From: Streptomyces sp. CA-278952 | GTDB taxonomy: Bacteria > Actinomycetota > Actinomycetes > Streptomycetales > Streptomycetaceae | Assembly (NCBI RefSeq): GCF_028747205.1 | Contig: NZ_CP112880.1 | Coordinates: 6,262,001-6,326,000, forward strand | DNA: 64,000 nt | Reading direction: 5' to 3' | Part shown: in pieces, positions 1,356-48,156 of the stretch | Layout of the letters: the number at the start of each line of letters is the position of its first letter | How positions within the stretch are numbered: position 1 is the first letter of the stretch | Program-made: the position numbers and the translations under genes | Notes under the pieces: model-generated | Seen by the model: only the letters and a program-made list of their open reading frames with translations | Databases searched by the model: none | What the model was told of the DNA's origin: nothing

Positions 1356-3609
<2,254 letters not shown>

Positions 3610-3614
3610 GGGTG

Positions 3615-3712
3615 TCCAGCCCCTCCCTTCGCCGGCATGACCCGGAGCAGGTTCGTACGGTCGGAGGCCGGCCAGCCTCCCTCTCAGCCCGGTGCGTCCG
3701 GGCTCCCGCGAG
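3615..3712 (-). promoter_or_regulatory. TPP riboswitch (THI box) controlling thiO-thiS-thiG
   Basis: Read on the minus strand the segment has the conserved THI-box elements in order: GGGGCT-like P1/P2 bases with CTGAGA (complement at 3682-3687), then GAACCTGCTCCGGGTCATGCC, then GCGAAGGGA. The last block merges with AGGGAGGGG, the only plausible ribosome binding site for thiO. TPP binding would therefore be expected to hide the translation start. The pyrimidine- and pyrophosphate-sensing halves are both recognisable. Confidence 0.93.
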
Positions 3713-3713
3713 T

Positions 3714-3719
3714 GTTCTA
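3714..3719 (-). promoter_or_regulatory. Candidate -10 box of the thi operon
   Basis: TAGAAC on the minus strand lies immediately upstream of the riboswitch, at the position expected for the operon promoter. It is assigned by position and -10 likeness only. Confidence 0.3.
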
Positions 3720-39439: not shown

Positions 39440-40069
39440 ATGGCCGGCGCGATGCGCAAGATGGCGGTCTACCTCGGCCTCGTGGAGGACGATGGGTACG
39501 ACGGTCCGGGGTTCGACCCCGATGACGAATTCGAACCTGAGCCGGAGCCCGAGCGCGACCGGCGGCGGCAGCAGCCCCCACACCAGGTGGAGCGGGAACG
39601 CGAGCGCGAGCGCGAAAGGGACGAACCGGTACGAGTGGTTCAACCGCCCGCCCAGCGCGAGCCGGTTCAGCTCCCCGCCGAAAGTGTGCGACCCGCCCGG
39701 ATCGCCCCCGTGGCATCCATCACACCTGAACGCCCGAACATGGAGAAGAACGCACCGGTGATCATGCCCAAGGTCGTGTCCGAGCGGGAGCCGTACCGCA
39801 TCACCACGCTGCACCCCAGGACCTACAACGAGGCCCGTACCATCGGGGAACACTTCCGTGAGGGCACTCCGGTGATCATGAATCTCACGGAGATGGACGA
39901 CACGGACGCGAAGCGACTTGTCGACTTTGCCGCGGGACTCGTCTTCGGTCTCCATGGCAGCATTGAACGCGTGACGCAGAAGGTGTTCCTGTTGTCGCCT
40001 GCTAACGTCGATGTCACGGCGGAGGACAAGGCCCGCATCGCAGAGGGCGGATTCTTCAACCAGAGCTGA
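39440..40069 (+). CDS. sepF: FtsZ anchor and alignment protein SepF
   Basis: SepF tethers FtsZ to the membrane by an N-terminal amphipathic helix. The 209 residues start [18 protein letters not shown] (amphipathic), continue through an acidic and Arg/Glu-rich linker, and end in the conserved SepF domain ([62 protein letters not shown]). Actinobacteria lack FtsA and ZipA, so SepF is the main anchor. A GGAGGACTCGGAGC leader precedes the ATG. Confidence 0.96.
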
Positions 40070-40160
40070 GAACGCAACACCGGGAACAACCCGGCCGAGA
40101 GGCCGGTGCCGGCCACGAGGCCGGAGCTGACGAGAGCCAGGGGAGAGGGAACCGCGGGAC

Positions 40161-40445
40161 ATGGGCGTCGCACTGGATGTGGTCTATATCGCGCTGATGT
40201 GTTTCCTCATCGTGCTGATCTTCCGGCTGGTCATGGACTATGTCTTTCAGTTCGCACGTTCATGGCAACCCGGCAAGGCGATGGTGGTCGTACTTGAGGC
40301 CACCTACACTGTCACCGATCCACCGCTCAAGCTTCTGCGGCGGTTCATTCCGCCGCTGCGTCTCGGGGGCGTGGCACTCGACCTGTCCTTCTTCGTTCTG
40401 ATGATCATCGTCTACATCCTGATCAGCGTTGTGGTCAGGTTGTGA
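40161..40445 (+). CDS. YggT family membrane protein (YlmG)
   Basis: The 94-residue protein has two membrane helices flanking the YggT signature TDPPLKLLRRFIPPLRLGGVALDLSFFVLMIIVYIL. Homologues sit between sepF and divIVA in most Gram-positives and may help division or lipid handling. Its mechanism is unknown. It lies upstream of divIVA with a 49-base gap. Confidence 0.92.
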   Translation: MGVALDVVYIALMCFLIVLIFRLVMDYVFQFARSWQPGKAMVVVLEATYTVTDPPLKLLRRFIPPLRLGGVALDLSFFVLMIIVYILISVVVRL

Positions 40446-40494
40446 GCGATACGGTCTTGCCGACTGCCGACGACTACGTAGAGGTGAAGAAGAG

Positions 40495-41667
40495 ATGCCG
40501 TTGACCCCCGAGGACGTGCGGAACAAGCAGTTCACGACCGTCCGCCTCCGAGAAGGCTATGACGAGGACGAGGTCGATGCCTTTCTCGACGAGGTCGAAT
40601 CGGAGCTGACCCGTCTGCTCCGTGAGAACGAGGACCTGCGCGCCAAGCTGGCCGCCGCGACGCGTGCCGCCGCGCAGAACCAGCAGCAGCAACAGCAGCA
40701 GGGTATGCGCAAGCCTCCGGAGCAGCAGGACCGCCCGGGTGCGCCCGTTCCCGCCGCCATATCAGGACCGCCGCAGCAGCAGCAGCCCCCGCAGATGGGT
40801 CCGCCCCAGCTGCCCGGTGGCGCGCCGCAGCTGCCCGCAGGTCCCAGTGGCCACGGCCCCCAGGGCGGCCATGGTCCCGGTCCGCAGGGCCCGCACGGCC
40901 CCGGCCCGATGCAGGGCGGTCCCATGGGTGGCCCGATGCAGGGCGGCCCCATGGGTCAGCACCCTCAGCAGCAGCAGATGCAGCAGATGCAGCCGTCGCA
41001 GATGCAGCCGCCGCAGATGCAGCAGCAGGGGCAGGCCCCCGGTGGCGACAGCGCCGCCCGTGTCCTCTCGCTCGCACAGCAGACCGCCGACCAGGCGATC
41101 GCGGAGGCCCGTTCGGAGGCCAACAAGATCGTCGGCGAGGCGCGCAGCCGCGCCGAGGGCCTGGAGCGCGACGCGCGTGCCAAGGCCGACGCCCTGGAGC
41201 GGGACGCGCAGGAGAAGCACCGCGTGGCGATGGGCTCGCTGGAGTCGGCCCGCGCGACGCTGGAGCGCAAGGTCGAGGACCTGCGTGGCTTCGAGCGCGA
41301 GTACCGCACGCGGCTGAAGTCCTACCTGGAGAGCCAGCTGCGTCAGCTGGAGACCCAGGCGGACGACTCGCTCGCCCCGCCGCGGACCCCGGCAGCCGCT
41401 TCGCTGCCGCCGTCCCCCTCGCTGGCCCCGGCCGGCGCGGGTGCGATGGGTCACTCCATGGGCGGCTCCAACCACGGTGGCCACGGCGGCCAGCAGATGG
41501 GTGGCGGCCAGTCAGGCATGGGCGGTGCGCCGTCCTACGGTGGCCAGCAGCAGATGTCGCCCGCGATGACGCAGCCGATGGCGCCGGTGCGGCCGCAGGC
41601 GCCGCAGCCGATGCAGCAGGCGCCTTCGCCGATGCGTGGGTTCCTGATCGACGAGGACGACAACTGA
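40495..41667 (+). CDS. divIVA: Polar growth protein DivIVA
   Basis: DivIVA marks hyphal tips and branch sites and recruits the polarisome. The 390-residue protein has the N-terminal lipid-binding domain MPLTPEDVRNKQFTTVRLREGYDEDEVDAFLDEVESELTRLL, then a Gln/Pro/Met/Gly-rich insert (about residues 62-185). A second coiled coil (about 185-305), a Met/Gly/Gln-rich tail and the end MRGFLIDEDDN follow. The insert is typical of streptomycetes and its CAG-rich coding repeats may vary in length. The ATG follows GAAGAAGAG. It ends the cluster before a strong terminator. Confidence 0.96.
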   Translation: MPLTPEDVRNKQFTTVRLREGYDEDEVDAFLDEVESELTRLLRENEDLRAKLAAATRAAAQNQQQQQQQGMRKPPEQQDRPGAPVPAAISGPPQQQQPPQMGPPQLPGGAPQLPAGPSGHGPQGGHGPGPQGPHGPGPMQGGPMGGPMQGGPMGQHPQQQQMQQMQPSQMQPPQMQQQGQAPGGDSAARVLSLAQQTADQAIAEARSEANKIVGEARSRAEGLERDARAKADALERDAQEKHRVAMGSLESARATLERKVEDLRGFEREYRTRLKSYLESQLRQLETQADDSLAPPRTPAAASLPPSPSLAPAGAGAMGHSMGGSNHGGHGGQQMGGGQSGMGGAPSYGGQQQMSPAMTQPMAPVRPQAPQPMQQAPSPMRGFLIDEDDN

Positions 41668-42005: not shown

Positions 42006-45000
42006 CTACCGCTTCCGCAGGCGGAACGTGAGCTCCAGGCCCTCGTCCTCGAACACCTCGCCGTACGTCTCGTCCGCCTCGCCCTCCGCGTAGTCCAGGG
42101 CGAGGACCTCCTCGGAGATCAGCGGGGTGTGCTCGGTGAGGGCCTCCGCCGTTGCCGGGGACGTCGTCGTCCAGCGGACGGCGATGCGGTCCGCGACGTC
42201 CAGGCCGCTGTTCTTGCGGGCCTCCTGGATCAGGCGGATCGCGTCACGGGCCAGGCCCGCGCGGCGCAGTTCCGGGGTGATCTCCAAGTCCAGCGCGACC
42301 GTCGCGCCCGAGTCCGAGGCGACCGACCAGCCCTCGCGCGGGGTCTCCGTGATGATGACCTCGTCGGGGGCGAGGGTGATCCGCTCGCCGTCGACCTCCA
42401 CCGATGCCGTGCCCTCGCGCAGGGCCAGGGACAGCGCGGCCGCGTCCGTGTTCGCCACCGCCTTGGCCACCGCCTGGACGCCCTTGCCGAACCGCTTGCC
42501 CAGGGCGCGGAAGTTGGCCTTCGCCGTCGTGTCGACCAGCGAGCCGCCCACCTCCGAGAGCGACGCCAGCGACGTGACGTTCAGCTCTTCCGTGATCTGG
42601 GCGCGCAGCTCGGTGGAGAGCCCTTCGAAGCCTGCCGCCGCCACCAGCGCGCGCGACAGCGGCTGGCGGGTCTTCACGCCCGACTCGGCGCGTGTGGCCC
42701 GGCCCAGCTCGACGAGGCGGCGCACCAGCGCCATCTGCGTGGAGAGCGTCGGGTCGATCGCCGTCGGATCCGCCTTCGGCCACGAGGACAGGTGGACCGA
42801 CTCCGGGGCGTCGGGAGTGACCGGCGCCACCAGGTCCTGCCAGACCCGCTCGGTGATGAACGGGGTCAGCGGGGCCATCAGCCGGGTCACCGTCTCGACG
42901 ACCTCGTGCAGGGTGCGCAGCGCCGCCTTGTCGCCCTGCCAGAAGCGGCGGCGCGAGCGGCGTACGTACCAGTTGGAGAGGTCGTCCACGAACGCCGAGA
43001 GCAGCTTGCCGGCGCGCTGGGTGTCGTAGCCGTCCATCGCGGCGGTCATCTGGTCGACCAGCGCGTTGAGTTCGCTCAGCAGCCAGCGGTCCAGGACCGT
43101 GCGGTCCGCCGGGGCCGGGTCGGCCTGGGAGGGTGTCCAGCCCGATGTGCGGGCGTACAGGGCCTGGAAGGCGACCGTGTTCCAGTAGGTGAGGAGCGTC
43201 TTGCGGACGACCTCCTGGATCGTGCCGTGACCCACGCGCCGTGCCGCCCACGGGGAGCCGCCGGCCGCCATGAACCACCGCACCGCGTCCGCCCCGTGCT
43301 GGTCCATCAGCGGGATCGGCTGGAGGATGTTCCCCAGGTGCTTGGACATCTTGCGGCCGTCCTCGGCGAGGATGTGGCCGAGGCAGACGACGTTCTCGTA
43401 ACTCGACTTGTCGAAGACCAGGGTGCCCACCGCCATCAGCGTGTAGAACCAGCCGCGGGTCTGGTCGATGGCCTCCGAGATGAACTGCGCCGGGTAGCGG
43501 CTCTCGAAGACTTCCTTGTTCTTGTACGGGTAGCCCCACTGCGCGAACGGCATCGAACCCGAGTCGTACCAGGCGTCGATGACCTCCGGAACGCGGTACG
43601 CCTCCAGCTGGCAGCTCTCCTGCGTGCAGGTGAAGGTGATCTCGTCGATGAACGGGCGGTGCGGGTCCAGATCTGATTGATCGGCGCCCGTCAGTTCCGT
43701 CAGCTCCGCGCGGGAGCCCACGCAGGTGAGGTGGTTGTCCTCGCAGCGCCAGATCGGCAGCGGTGTGCCCCAGTAGCGGTTACGGGACAGCGCCCAGTCG
43801 ACGTTGTTGTTCAGCCAGTCGCCGAAGCGGCCGTTCTTGACCGAGTCCGGGAACCAGTTGGTCTTCTCGTTCTCCTCGAGGAGCCGGTCCTTGATCGCCG
43901 TCGTCCTGATGTACCAGGACGGCTGCGCGTAGTAGAGCAGCGCCGTGTGGCAGCGCCAGCAGTGCGGGTAGCTGTGCTCGTAGGGGACGTGGCGGAAGAG
44001 CTTGCCGCGTGCGTCCAGGTCCGCGGTGAGCGCCTCGTCTGCCTTCTTGAAGAAGACGCCGCCGACCAGGGGGAGGTCTTCCTCGAACGTGCCGTCCGGG
44101 CGGACCGGGTTGACCACCGGGAGCCCGTACGCACGGCAGACCAGGAGGTCGTCGGCGCCGAACGCGGGGGACTGGTGGACCAGACCCGTACCGTCCTCGG
44201 TCGTGACGTACTCGGCGTTGACGACGTAGTGCGCTTCGGACGGGAAGTCCACCAGGGCGAACGGGCGCTCGTAGGTCCAGCGCTCCATCTCCGCGCCGGT
44301 GAACGACTGGCCGGTTACCTCCCAGCCCTCGCCCAGGGCCTTCTCCAGAAGCGGCTCGGCGACGACGAGCTTCTCCTCGCCGTCGGTCGCCACGACGTAG
44401 CGGACCTCGGGGTGGGCGGCGACCGCCGTGTTGGAGACCAGGGTCCAGGGGGTGGTCGTCCAGACCAGGAGGGCGGCCTCGCCGGCCAGCGGGCCGGAGG
44501 TGAGCGGGAAGCGGACGAAGACCGAGGGGTCGACGACCGTCTCGTAGCCCTGGGCCAGCTCGTGGTCGGACAGGCCGGTGCCGCAGCGCGGGCACCAGGG
44601 GGCGACGCGGTGGTCCTGGACCAGCAGCTCCTTGTTGAAGATCTCCTTGAGCGACCACCACACGGAGTCCACGTACTCCGGGTCCATCGTGCGGTACGCG
44701 TCGTCCAGGTCGACCCAGTACCCCATGCGGGTCGTCAGCTCGGCGAAGGCGTCGGTGTGCCGGGTCACCGACTCACGGCACTTGGCGTTGAACTCGGCGA
44801 TGCCGAACGCCTCGATGTCCTTCTTGCCGTTGAAGCCCAGCTCCTTCTCCACCGCGAGCTCGACCGGCAGGCCGTGGCAGTCCCAGCCGGCCTTGCGGCC
44901 GACGTGGTAGCCCTGCATGGTGCGGAAGCGGGGGAAGACGTCCTTGAAGACGCGGGCCTCGATGTGGTGGGCGCCCGGCATGCCGTTGGCGGTGGGCGGG

Positions 45001-45154: not shown

Positions 45155-45435
45155 GCTTCCTCCGGCGGACGTCTTCCACTTCCGTCGGAGGGACGAGAGC
45201 GTCTCGGCTCCCGCGGTACCACCCTCCTTGGCCCCGGGCACAGGCCCGTGGCCCCCTCATTGGGGTCGCGATGCCGGGTCTAATGGCCTTGCGTCGACGG
45301 GCGGGGCCCATCGGTCAAAGCGTTCTTCCGGCGGCTCCGGGGTGATCTTCGCGGCGCGCTCGCCCCCGGGCTCCCACCGTCCCCGGGTCGCTACTGGCTG
45401 CGTACGGCGCTACTCGTCCCATCCAAGCCTCTCGC
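45155..45435 (-). promoter_or_regulatory. T-box riboswitch (Ile, translational type) of ileS
   Basis: Read on the minus strand, the leader contains the T-box core GAGGGTGGTACCGCGGGAG (complement at 45209-45226). An ATC isoleucine specifier lies in the context GAAGATCACC (complement 45344-45346). The SD GGAGG lies in a segment (45159-45168) that pairs with one mismatch to an anti-SD segment (45182-45191), forming a sequestrator hairpin next to the start codon. Uncharged tRNA(Ile) binding would be expected to open the SD. Actinobacterial ileS genes are known to use such translational T-boxes. Confidence 0.93.
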
Positions 45436-45712: not shown

Positions 45713-46522
45713 ATGGTGGCGAAGAAGACGGCGGAAGAGACCGCGGCCGAGCACGACGGCACCCACGAGCCACCGGTCGGCCAGGAGGCCGCGCCCGCGA
45801 AGAGCACGGCGAAGAACGCTGGATCCGGGGAAGCCGCCTCCGAGGAAGCCGCCTCCAAGAAGACGGTGGACAACAAGAAGGCCGCGGCCAAGAAGACCGC
45901 GGCCAAGAAGAGCGCGGCCAAGAAGACGGCGACCGGCGAGAAGTCCGTAGCCAAGAAGAGCGCGGCCAAGAAGGCGTCGAGAAAGGCCGCGGTGGCGGCC
46001 ACGGAGGCGGCCACGGCCGCCGAGCAGACGGGAGCCCACACGGTGGTAGCCAAGAAGAGCGCGAGTCGTCACACAGCAGGCGCACAGGCCACGGCCCCCG
46101 TGCCGCCGGCCCGCGCCGCCGCCCCCGACGAGCTGGCCGTCCGGCCCGGGGAGGACCCCTGGACGCCCGAGGAGGTCACCGAGGCGCGCACCCTGCTGAC
46201 GAGCGAGACGCTGCGGCTCCGCAGCGAGCTGGAGGCCTCCGGCGCGGCGCTCGCCGGGCTGATGCGGGACTCCGGCGACGGCGCGGGCGACGACGAGGCC
46301 GACACCGGTACCAAGAACATCACCCGCGAGCACGAGCTGTCGCTGGCCGCCCACGCCCAGGAGACGCTGGAGCAGACCGAGCGGGCGCTCGCCCGGCTGG
46401 AGGCGGGGACGTACGGGCTCTGCGAGGTCTGCGGCAAACCGATCGGCAAGGCGCGGATGCAGGCCTTCCCCCGGGCCACCCTGTGCGTCGAGGACAAGCA
46501 GAAGCAGGAGCGGCGCGGCTGA
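45713..46522 (+). CDS. TraR/DksA-type zinc-finger protein with Lys/Ala-rich histone-like N-terminal domain
   Basis: The 269-residue protein has an N-terminal third rich in AAKK repeats ([21 protein letters not shown]), resembling histone H1-like tails. A coiled coil follows ([23 protein letters not shown]), and then the DksA/TraR finger [31 protein letters not shown]. The finger has Cys-x2-Cys and one later Cys, but the expected fourth ligand is Asp-Lys. DksA-like proteins act in the secondary channel of RNA polymerase; the basic tail suggests DNA contact. The ATG at 45713 was chosen for the GAAGGGG site and for the start of the basic region. Confidence 0.87.
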
Positions 46523-46580
46523 TCCGCACAGGTGTGTCGTACCCTCATCCTCAGGCAGGCACCTAGGTTGAGGGACTCAC

Positions 46581-47171
46581 GTGGCAGAGGCGGAGCGCAT
46601 CATCGGTACGCCGGACAATCCCGAGGCCGAGGGCACGGACGAGGGCGGCAGCACGGCCGCCGACGCGGCCGTGAACGCGGGCCGGGGCAAGCGGAAGGTC
46701 CTCGTTCTCCTGAGCGTGGCCGTCGTGGCCTATCTGCTGGACCTGACCACCAAGATGATCGTGGTCGCGAAGCTGGAGCACCAGCCGCCGATCGACATCA
46801 TCGGCGACTGGCTCCAGTTCCGGGCGCTCCGGAACGCGGGAGCCGCGTTCGGGATCGGCGAGGCGTTCACGGTGATCTTCACCATCATCGCCTCCGGAGT
46901 GATCGTGGTGATCATCCGGCTGGCCCGCAAGCTCTACAGCCTGCCGTGGGCCATCGCCCTGGGCCTCCTCCTGGGGGGTGCGCTCGGCAACCTCACCGAC
47001 CGGCTCTTCCGGGCGCCCGGCGCGTTCGAGGGTGCGGTGGTGGACTTCATCGCCCCCAAGAACTTCGCCGTCTTCAACCTCGCCGACTCCGCCATCGTGT
47101 GCGGCGGCATCCTCATCGTGATCCTCTCCTTCAAGGGCCTGGACCCGGACGGGACCGTCCACAAGGACTGA
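46581..47171 (+). CDS. lspA: Prolipoprotein signal peptidase LspA
   Basis: LspA cleaves signal peptides from lipid-modified prolipoproteins. The 196-residue protein has four membrane helices and the catalytic aspartates in [22 protein letters not shown] and [12 protein letters not shown], plus [13 protein letters not shown]. An N-terminal acidic extension of about 35 residues is typical for actinobacteria. The GTG start lies 58 bases after the TraR/DksA-type gene. Confidence 0.95.
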
Positions 47172-47214
47172 CCGCCCGGCGCGGGGACCTGCGGGCGCAA
47201 GGCATACTCGACAG

Positions 47215-48156
47215 GTGAGTACGCACCCCGAGATCCGCACCCTGCCCGTACCGGACGGCCTGGAAGGCGAGCGCGTCGACGCCGCCATCTCCCGGATGTT
47301 CGGTTTCTCCCGCACCAAGGCCGCCGAGCTGGCCGCAGCCGGGAAGGTCCAGGTGGACGGTTCGGTGGCCGGCAAGTCCGAGCGGGTCCACGGGGGTGCC
47401 TGGCTGGAAGTGGAGATGCCGGGTGCGCCCGCCCCCGTCCAGATCCTCGTCGAGCCCGTCGAGGGCATGGAGATCGTCCATGACGACGACGACATCGTCG
47501 TCATCATGAAGCCGGTCGGCGTCGCCGCCCACCCCAGCCCCGGCTGGACCGGCACCACCGTCATCGGCGGCCTCGCCGCCGCCGGCTACCGGATCTCGAC
47601 GTCCGGCGCCGCCGAGCGCCAGGGCATCGTCCACCGCCTCGACGTCGGCACCTCCGGCCTGATGGTCGTCGCCAAGTCCGAGCGCGCCTACACCCTGCTC
47701 AAGGCCCAGTTCCGCGACCGGGTCGTCGACAAGAAGTACCACGCGCTCGTCCAGGGCCACCCGGACCCGATGAGCGGCACCATCGACGCCCCCATCGGGC
47801 GCCACCCCAACCACGACTACAAGTGGGCGGTCACCGCCGAGGGCAAGCCGTCGGTGACCCACTACGACCTGATCGAGGCCTACCGCGCCGCCAGCCTCCT
47901 CGACATCAAGCTGGAGACCGGCCGCACCCACCAGATCCGGGTCCACATGTCCGCCCACCGCCACCCCTGCGTCGGCGACCTCACCTACGGCGCGGACCCG
48001 ACCCTGGCCAAGCGCCTCGGGCTGACCCGCCAGTGGCTGCACGCCGTGCGCCTGGGCTTCGAGCACCCGAGCGACGGCAGCTGGGTGGAGTTCGCCAGCA
48101 CCTACCCGGCCGACCTCCAGCACGCCCTCGACACCATCTCCGCGGAGAGTCAGTGA
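47215..48156 (+). CDS. Ribosomal large subunit pseudouridine synthase RluD-like
   Basis: The 313-residue protein has an S4 RNA-binding domain ([31 protein letters not shown]). The RluA/RluD catalytic domain follows, with [27 protein letters not shown], where the Asp is catalytic (near residue 142), and [23 protein letters not shown]. It probably makes pseudouridines in helix 69 of 23S rRNA. It follows lspA, as in most actinobacteria. Confidence 0.94.

Follow-up and report, generated by a model that had tools for sequence, protein, structure and literature searches.

The window analysed here, a stretch of 64,000 nucleotides from Streptomyces sp. CA-278952, carries on its minus strand ileS, the gene of isoleucyl-tRNA synthetase (IleRS), framed by two groups of conserved neighbours and preceded by a putative T-box leader (Table 1). 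In the upstream group, lspA encodes signal peptidase II and the rluD-type gene a pseudouridine synthase. The locus adjoins a run of cell-wall and division open reading frames (ORFs).

Table 1. Features of the ileS locus, by position in the window
Feature	Position	Strand	Basis
ileS, isoleucyl-tRNA synthetase, IleRS2 type, 1047 aa	42006..45149	-	TIGR00392; IleRS2 structures nearest
GAHH (residues 59-62) replacing HxGH	44964..44975	-	codons and alignment
KMSKH (residues 600-604) replacing KMSKS	43338..43352	-	alignment and translation
sepF, yggT, divIVA, conserved genes on the downstream side of ileS	39440..41667	+	Pfam SepF, YGGT, DivIVA
dksA/traR-type gene, lspA, rluD-type gene, upstream of ileS	45713..48156	+	Pfam zf-dskA_traR, Peptidase_A8, PseudoU_synth_2
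Putative T-box leader of ileS, under the Rfam gathering score	45186..45434	-	RF00230 match, model 1-219 of 219
Predicted hairpin covering the ileS Shine-Dalgarno	45159..45191	-	minimum-energy fold

The ileS product reaches 895 bits against TIGR00392, for which the cut-off is 621.4, and contains the Pfam domains tRNA-synt_1, Anticodon_1 and DUF5915. The solved IleRS2 entries 1ile (Thermus) and 8c8w, the latter presumably from P. megaterium, match it at 890 and 885 bits, far above the 336-344 bits of the best-matching IleRS1 structures, namely 1ffy from S. aureus together with 8c9f and 8c9e. Furthermore, no cysteine occurs within its last 200 residues, and it therefore lacks the C-terminal zinc-binding cysteine cluster that characterises IleRS1 (PMC4861432). 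By its sequence, the enzyme is assigned to the IleRS2 type. It is also the sole IleRS found in the genome, which is represented by one contig of 8.2 Mb with a completeness of 100: a genome-wide profile search returned one place passing the ileS cut-off, all other matches lying below it. The idea of a second, canonical ileS was rejected on these grounds; four of the weaker matches were translated, and they show the HxGH usual in class I synthetases.

A sequence-only reading had noticed Gly-Ala-His-His at the place where class I synthetases have HxGH. This is borne out by the minus-strand codons, GGC GCC CAC CAC, and by the alignment with the IleRS of T. thermophilus (1ile), in which GPPTANGMPGAHH faces GPPTANGLPHVGH without gaps around the motif and GAHH stands opposite HVGH. 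The window protein thus has the G/AXHH motif at the HxGH position. Scanning the whole protein for a true HxGH elsewhere, the finding that had been named as fatal to the reading, returned none, and [GA]xHH occurs once. Neither canonical class I signature is present, the second being KMSKH instead of KMSKS; this second change, which the earlier reading does not mention, places His604 where the last serine of KMSKS would be, on the ATP-closing loop. The four weaker matches mentioned above, class I synthetase ORFs which we take to be ValRS, LeuRS, MetRS and CysRS, all have HxGH, and KMSKS is present in three of the four within the stretch fetched. The signature change is specific to IleRS among the class I synthetases looked at.

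The leader of ileS matches the T-box model over its full length at 40.6 bits (E 1.4e-7), which agrees with the earlier description of the gene as T-box-led although the match stays under the Rfam gathering score of 93; a search of the whole window at that score missed it. In the class, matches at E 0.01 or better occur in 79 of 138 genomes, and none of the 138 reaches 93. The predicted hairpin over the Shine-Dalgarno is weak alone, as 20 of 200 shuffled sequences fold at least as well. Translational T-boxes before ileS were described in several Actinobacteria in 2005 (PMC1262725), and the translation of ileS is likely to be under T-box control here too; accumulation of uncharged tRNA(Ile) would then raise ileS translation, as that paper proposed. 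The DksA/TraR-type zinc-finger protein encoded beyond the leader (45713-46522, plus strand) was observed to have a long Lys/Ala-rich N-terminal tail, with a weak histone H1-like HC2 match of 22.2 bits against a cut-off of 40.

A survey covered 138 genomes of the class (Actinomycetes), of which 133 gave an ileS match at E 1e-60 or better. Two types of gene were distinguished. Type A, found in 107 of the 133 genomes, is 56-100% identical to the window protein, and type B, found in the other 26, is 39-47% identical; no genome among the 133, some of which are incomplete, contained both. The type A gene was read in 105 of its 107 genomes (two have matches that lack the gene start), and GxHH is carried by all 104 type A genomes in which the motif is readable. 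All 26 type B genes have HYGH, together with KMSKS. GxHH was also found in 12 of 12 genomes of the same genus (the genome itself included), there as GAHH, and in all of the 120 nearest protein clusters, which are mostly named Streptomyces; the nearest-cluster, Aeromicrobium-relative and survey sets overlap in organisms. Since GxHH is conserved across same-genus genomes, the type A genomes of the class and the nearest clusters, it is not the product of chance or of a sequencing error. Outside the class, a search of the phylum matched 370 of 396 genomes, and 74 of 74 genes read had GxHH; these were drawn from the better-scoring matches, and the weaker ones may be IleRS1 or of the HYGH type. In the loci read the swap occurs throughout the phylum, and the idea that it is a trait of antibiotic producers was dropped as unsupported.

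Two trees were built, one with FastTree on 161 rows with the motif columns kept, the other with IQ-TREE on 50 rows with those columns removed (LG+G4 without mixture, with a very long outgroup). The window enzyme groups with IleRS2 and lies, among enzymes of its own phylum, within a large GxHH clade; a long branch leads to the HYGH genes, which make up a clade of their own. Type B is a distinct kind of IleRS in other Actinomycetes: it is likewise a housekeeping enzyme, is in part preceded by T-box matches, and has the canonical HYGH/KMSKS signatures. T-box matches precede many type A genes, including that of the window, and stand directly before the type B gene in at least nine of 26 genomes. 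The minimum number of changes of the first motif on the trees is three; as the trees are drawn, one separates type B from type A and the others lie at Thermus and at P0201. The latter is an IleRS with HIGH/KMSKS nested inside the GxHH clade beside the locus L150 with moderate support, and may represent a second return to HxGH besides Thermus. In one genome of the survey (G438), two type A ileS genes (L262 and L278) were seen on different contigs, one of the matches containing an in-frame TAG; this assembly, with an estimated contamination of 7%, may be a mixture. The split of the class between two lineages (26 of 133 genomes with HYGH/KMSKS, none with both) was not found discussed in the open-licence literature.

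The second signature has a narrower distribution than the first. Among 96 type A loci of the class outside Streptomyces (one genome being counted twice), 91 end in KH: GxHH could be read alongside 77 KMSKH and 13 RMSKH, and one more KMSKH has an unreadable first motif; the remaining five are one KMSKN and four that are cut off. KMSKH is likewise found in 12/12 same-genus genomes, in 80/80 named loci and in 120/120 of the nearest protein clusters. Outside the class it was met in one of the 74 phylum genes (L150), and 65 of the 74 combine GxHH with KMSKS. It is absent from the 94 GxHH rows of a search with the Thermus query, and from 172 HxGH enzymes (26 type B loci, 26 Thermus-query rows and 120 Aeromicrobium-query rows, one of the last being KMSKN). 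On the trees KMSKH forms one clade, that of the Actinomycetes, plus L150, which implies two gains and one loss (at L124). L150, from a genome of the same phylum and another class (G003), has GAHH/KMSKH and falls outside the Actinomycetes clade; it is a likely case of an independent gain of KMSKH. A strict coupling of KMSKH to GxHH was considered and set aside: no KMSKH was met outside GxHH enzymes, yet the trees need just two gains and one loss, and so small a number of gains does not establish coupling. As GxHH with KMSKS is common, KMSKH is not required by GxHH.

Both lineages meet in one genus of the survey, in which one genome (G481, locus L162) has a type A gene with GTHH/KMSKH and two (G214, L163; G489, L164) have type B genes with HYGH/KMSKS. 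Among the best 80 of at least 595 matches to the type A protein, the closest named ones are mostly Aeromicrobium, among them A. piscarium, A. terrae and A. camelliae; for the type B protein they are again Aeromicrobium (including A. halocynthiae and a MAG called A. erythreum), followed by Nocardioides. In all three genomes ileS has the same orientation, with divIVA on one side and traR-lspA-rluD on the other, and the flanks nearest to it are 70-75% identical between the two kinds. IleRS enzymes of both kinds thus share a locus within one genus, and lineages that differ in their signatures occupy a single core locus. In all eight named Aeromicrobium type A loci examined traR adjoins ileS, contig ends hiding part of the rest in some of them. 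More broadly, sepF, yggT, lspA and rluD are present in all six type A genomes fetched with their flanks. Among 14 type B genomes with flanks, the whole neighbourhood was found in two (the above G214 and G489) and its sepF-divIVA side alone in two; two more have lspA-rluD about 7-10 kb away, and eight have none of these neighbours. Type A occurs across the phylum, which would fit its being the older resident, and multiple ancient transfers of ileS2 have already been inferred (PMC4861432). In G214 the type B leader matches the T-box model at E 6.3e-4 (27 bits and E 0.04 in a second search); with a threshold of E 0.1, L162 and L186, both type A, gave no match. No discussion of Aeromicrobium holding both kinds at one position was found in the open-licence literature.

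The first motif itself is well described. A survey of 379 prokaryotic IleRSs counted 86 IleRS2 with G/AXHH and 77 with HXGH, and found no IleRS1 with G/AXHH (PMC10485003). The swap lifts the Ki of mupirocin up to about a thousandfold, to the millimolar range, and an organism may rely on IleRS2 alone for housekeeping, the IleRS2 of Streptomyces griseus being named as a carrier of the motif (PMC10485003). The S. griseus IleRS has a mupirocin Ki of 10 mM, is active, and rescues the growth of E. coli under mupirocin (PMC4861432). It is a close counterpart of the window enzyme in print, coming from the same genus and being a housekeeping IleRS2 with, by its published description, the same motif (PMC4861432, PMC10485003); the number of its editing-site mutant, D334, also coincides with Asp334 of the window protein (in ADDLL, 332-336), which is a hint only. 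The IleRS2 of Deinococcus radiodurans is a natural G/AXHH enzyme as well, with a Ki of 6.6 mM, and has ALHH in place of GAHH (PMC10485003). A Deinococcus relative in our set (P0174) reads GIHH/KMSKS, in contrast to the KMSKH of the window.

The earlier reading was thus right in equating the swap with the published GxHH motif of IleRS2 and in recalling its link to mupirocin resistance (PMC10485003). The finding is correct, but it is ordinary for Streptomyces and already known, and that such an ileS is a core gene rather than an acquired one is likewise in print (PMC10485003, PMC4861432). In IleRS2 the signature is shifted towards the KMSKS loop, and the third histidine of the motif puts a nitrogen where that of the first would sit; when modelled, the third-position histidine collides with mupirocin (PMC10485003). 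Judging by the published structures and kinetics (PMC10485003, PMC4861432), in the window enzyme the third-position histidine would, owing to this shift, stand in for the catalytic first one, and the same residue would clash with bound mupirocin. By analogy with the S. griseus relative, the window enzyme is likely to be mupirocin-resistant, with a Ki probably in the millimolar range. The exchanged enzymes in print are without KMSKH, as far as their text tells, and the transfer of their kinetics is therefore inexact. Overall, we hold with high confidence that this IleRS, the sole one found in the genome, is of the known GxHH IleRS2 kind, charging tRNA(Ile) normally in all likelihood and being nearly insensitive to mupirocin.

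Three other explanations were weighed. The core locus might have been taken over by an acquired, specialised mupirocin-resistance IleRS such as MupA or MupB (NF000257, NF000258), which are related in sequence and known for resistance, but are acquired genes. Their models are the second and third best family models for the window protein, and Aeromicrobium does show an exchange of lineages at the ileS locus. The scores of 764.8 and 740.4 bits are, however, far below the cut-offs of 1900. GxHH is moreover universal among the readable type A genomes and the phylum genes read, the gene tree nests the window ileS among those of its phylum-mates, and ileS is the only copy in the genome, so that such a takeover is very improbable. 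The earlier view of a core chromosomal gene is upheld by this single copy, by the conserved sepF-yggT-divIVA and traR-lspA-rluD surroundings and by the IleRS2 type. Slightly less credible still is that the swap and KMSKH together have abolished or weakened isoleucine activation, another enzyme doing the housekeeping: both class I signatures of this IleRS do depart from the consensus, but its one-contig genome yielded no second ileS, the signature is strictly conserved across the class, and the S. griseus enzyme is active and supports the growth of E. coli (PMC4861432). Misalignment or a sequence error, with the real HxGH elsewhere, found no supporting point and is refuted by the absence of HxGH from the protein, the unbroken alignment through GAHH and the presence of GxHH in every homologue of the lineage whose motif was read.

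The motif in the housekeeping IleRS2 of the window has been inherited within its lineage and does not mark a resistance gene of recent acquisition. In much of this large bacterial class, to which Streptomyces belongs, protein synthesis depends on a swapped-motif IleRS, so that the occurrence of the motif in a genome is by itself no sign of an acquired resistance gene.

As regards KMSKH, the text of PMC10485003 does not contain it, although the alignment figures of that paper and of PMC4861432 may show it unremarked, and no related paper discussing it was found in open-licence full text, figures excluded. We offer, as a tentative proposal that is more probably wrong than right, that both signatures were rewritten together in the housekeeping IleRS of Actinomycetes, the change of HxGH into GxHH being followed by that of KMSKS into KMSKH. 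His604 would be functionally coupled to the relocated catalytic His61, in a class I active site whose two signatures share out the histidines in a new way, and the extreme mupirocin resistance would depend in part on it. Under this proposal, the exchange has already been run by nature, since Aeromicrobium species hold either enzyme at one locus; the genus offers species with either one in the same position. For the question of why IleRS2 tolerates the swap, and what benefit the swap brings, the co-signature names one residue. Elsewhere in the window, a TPP riboswitch was recognised at 3607-3719 on the minus strand, with 61.3 bits, above the gathering score.
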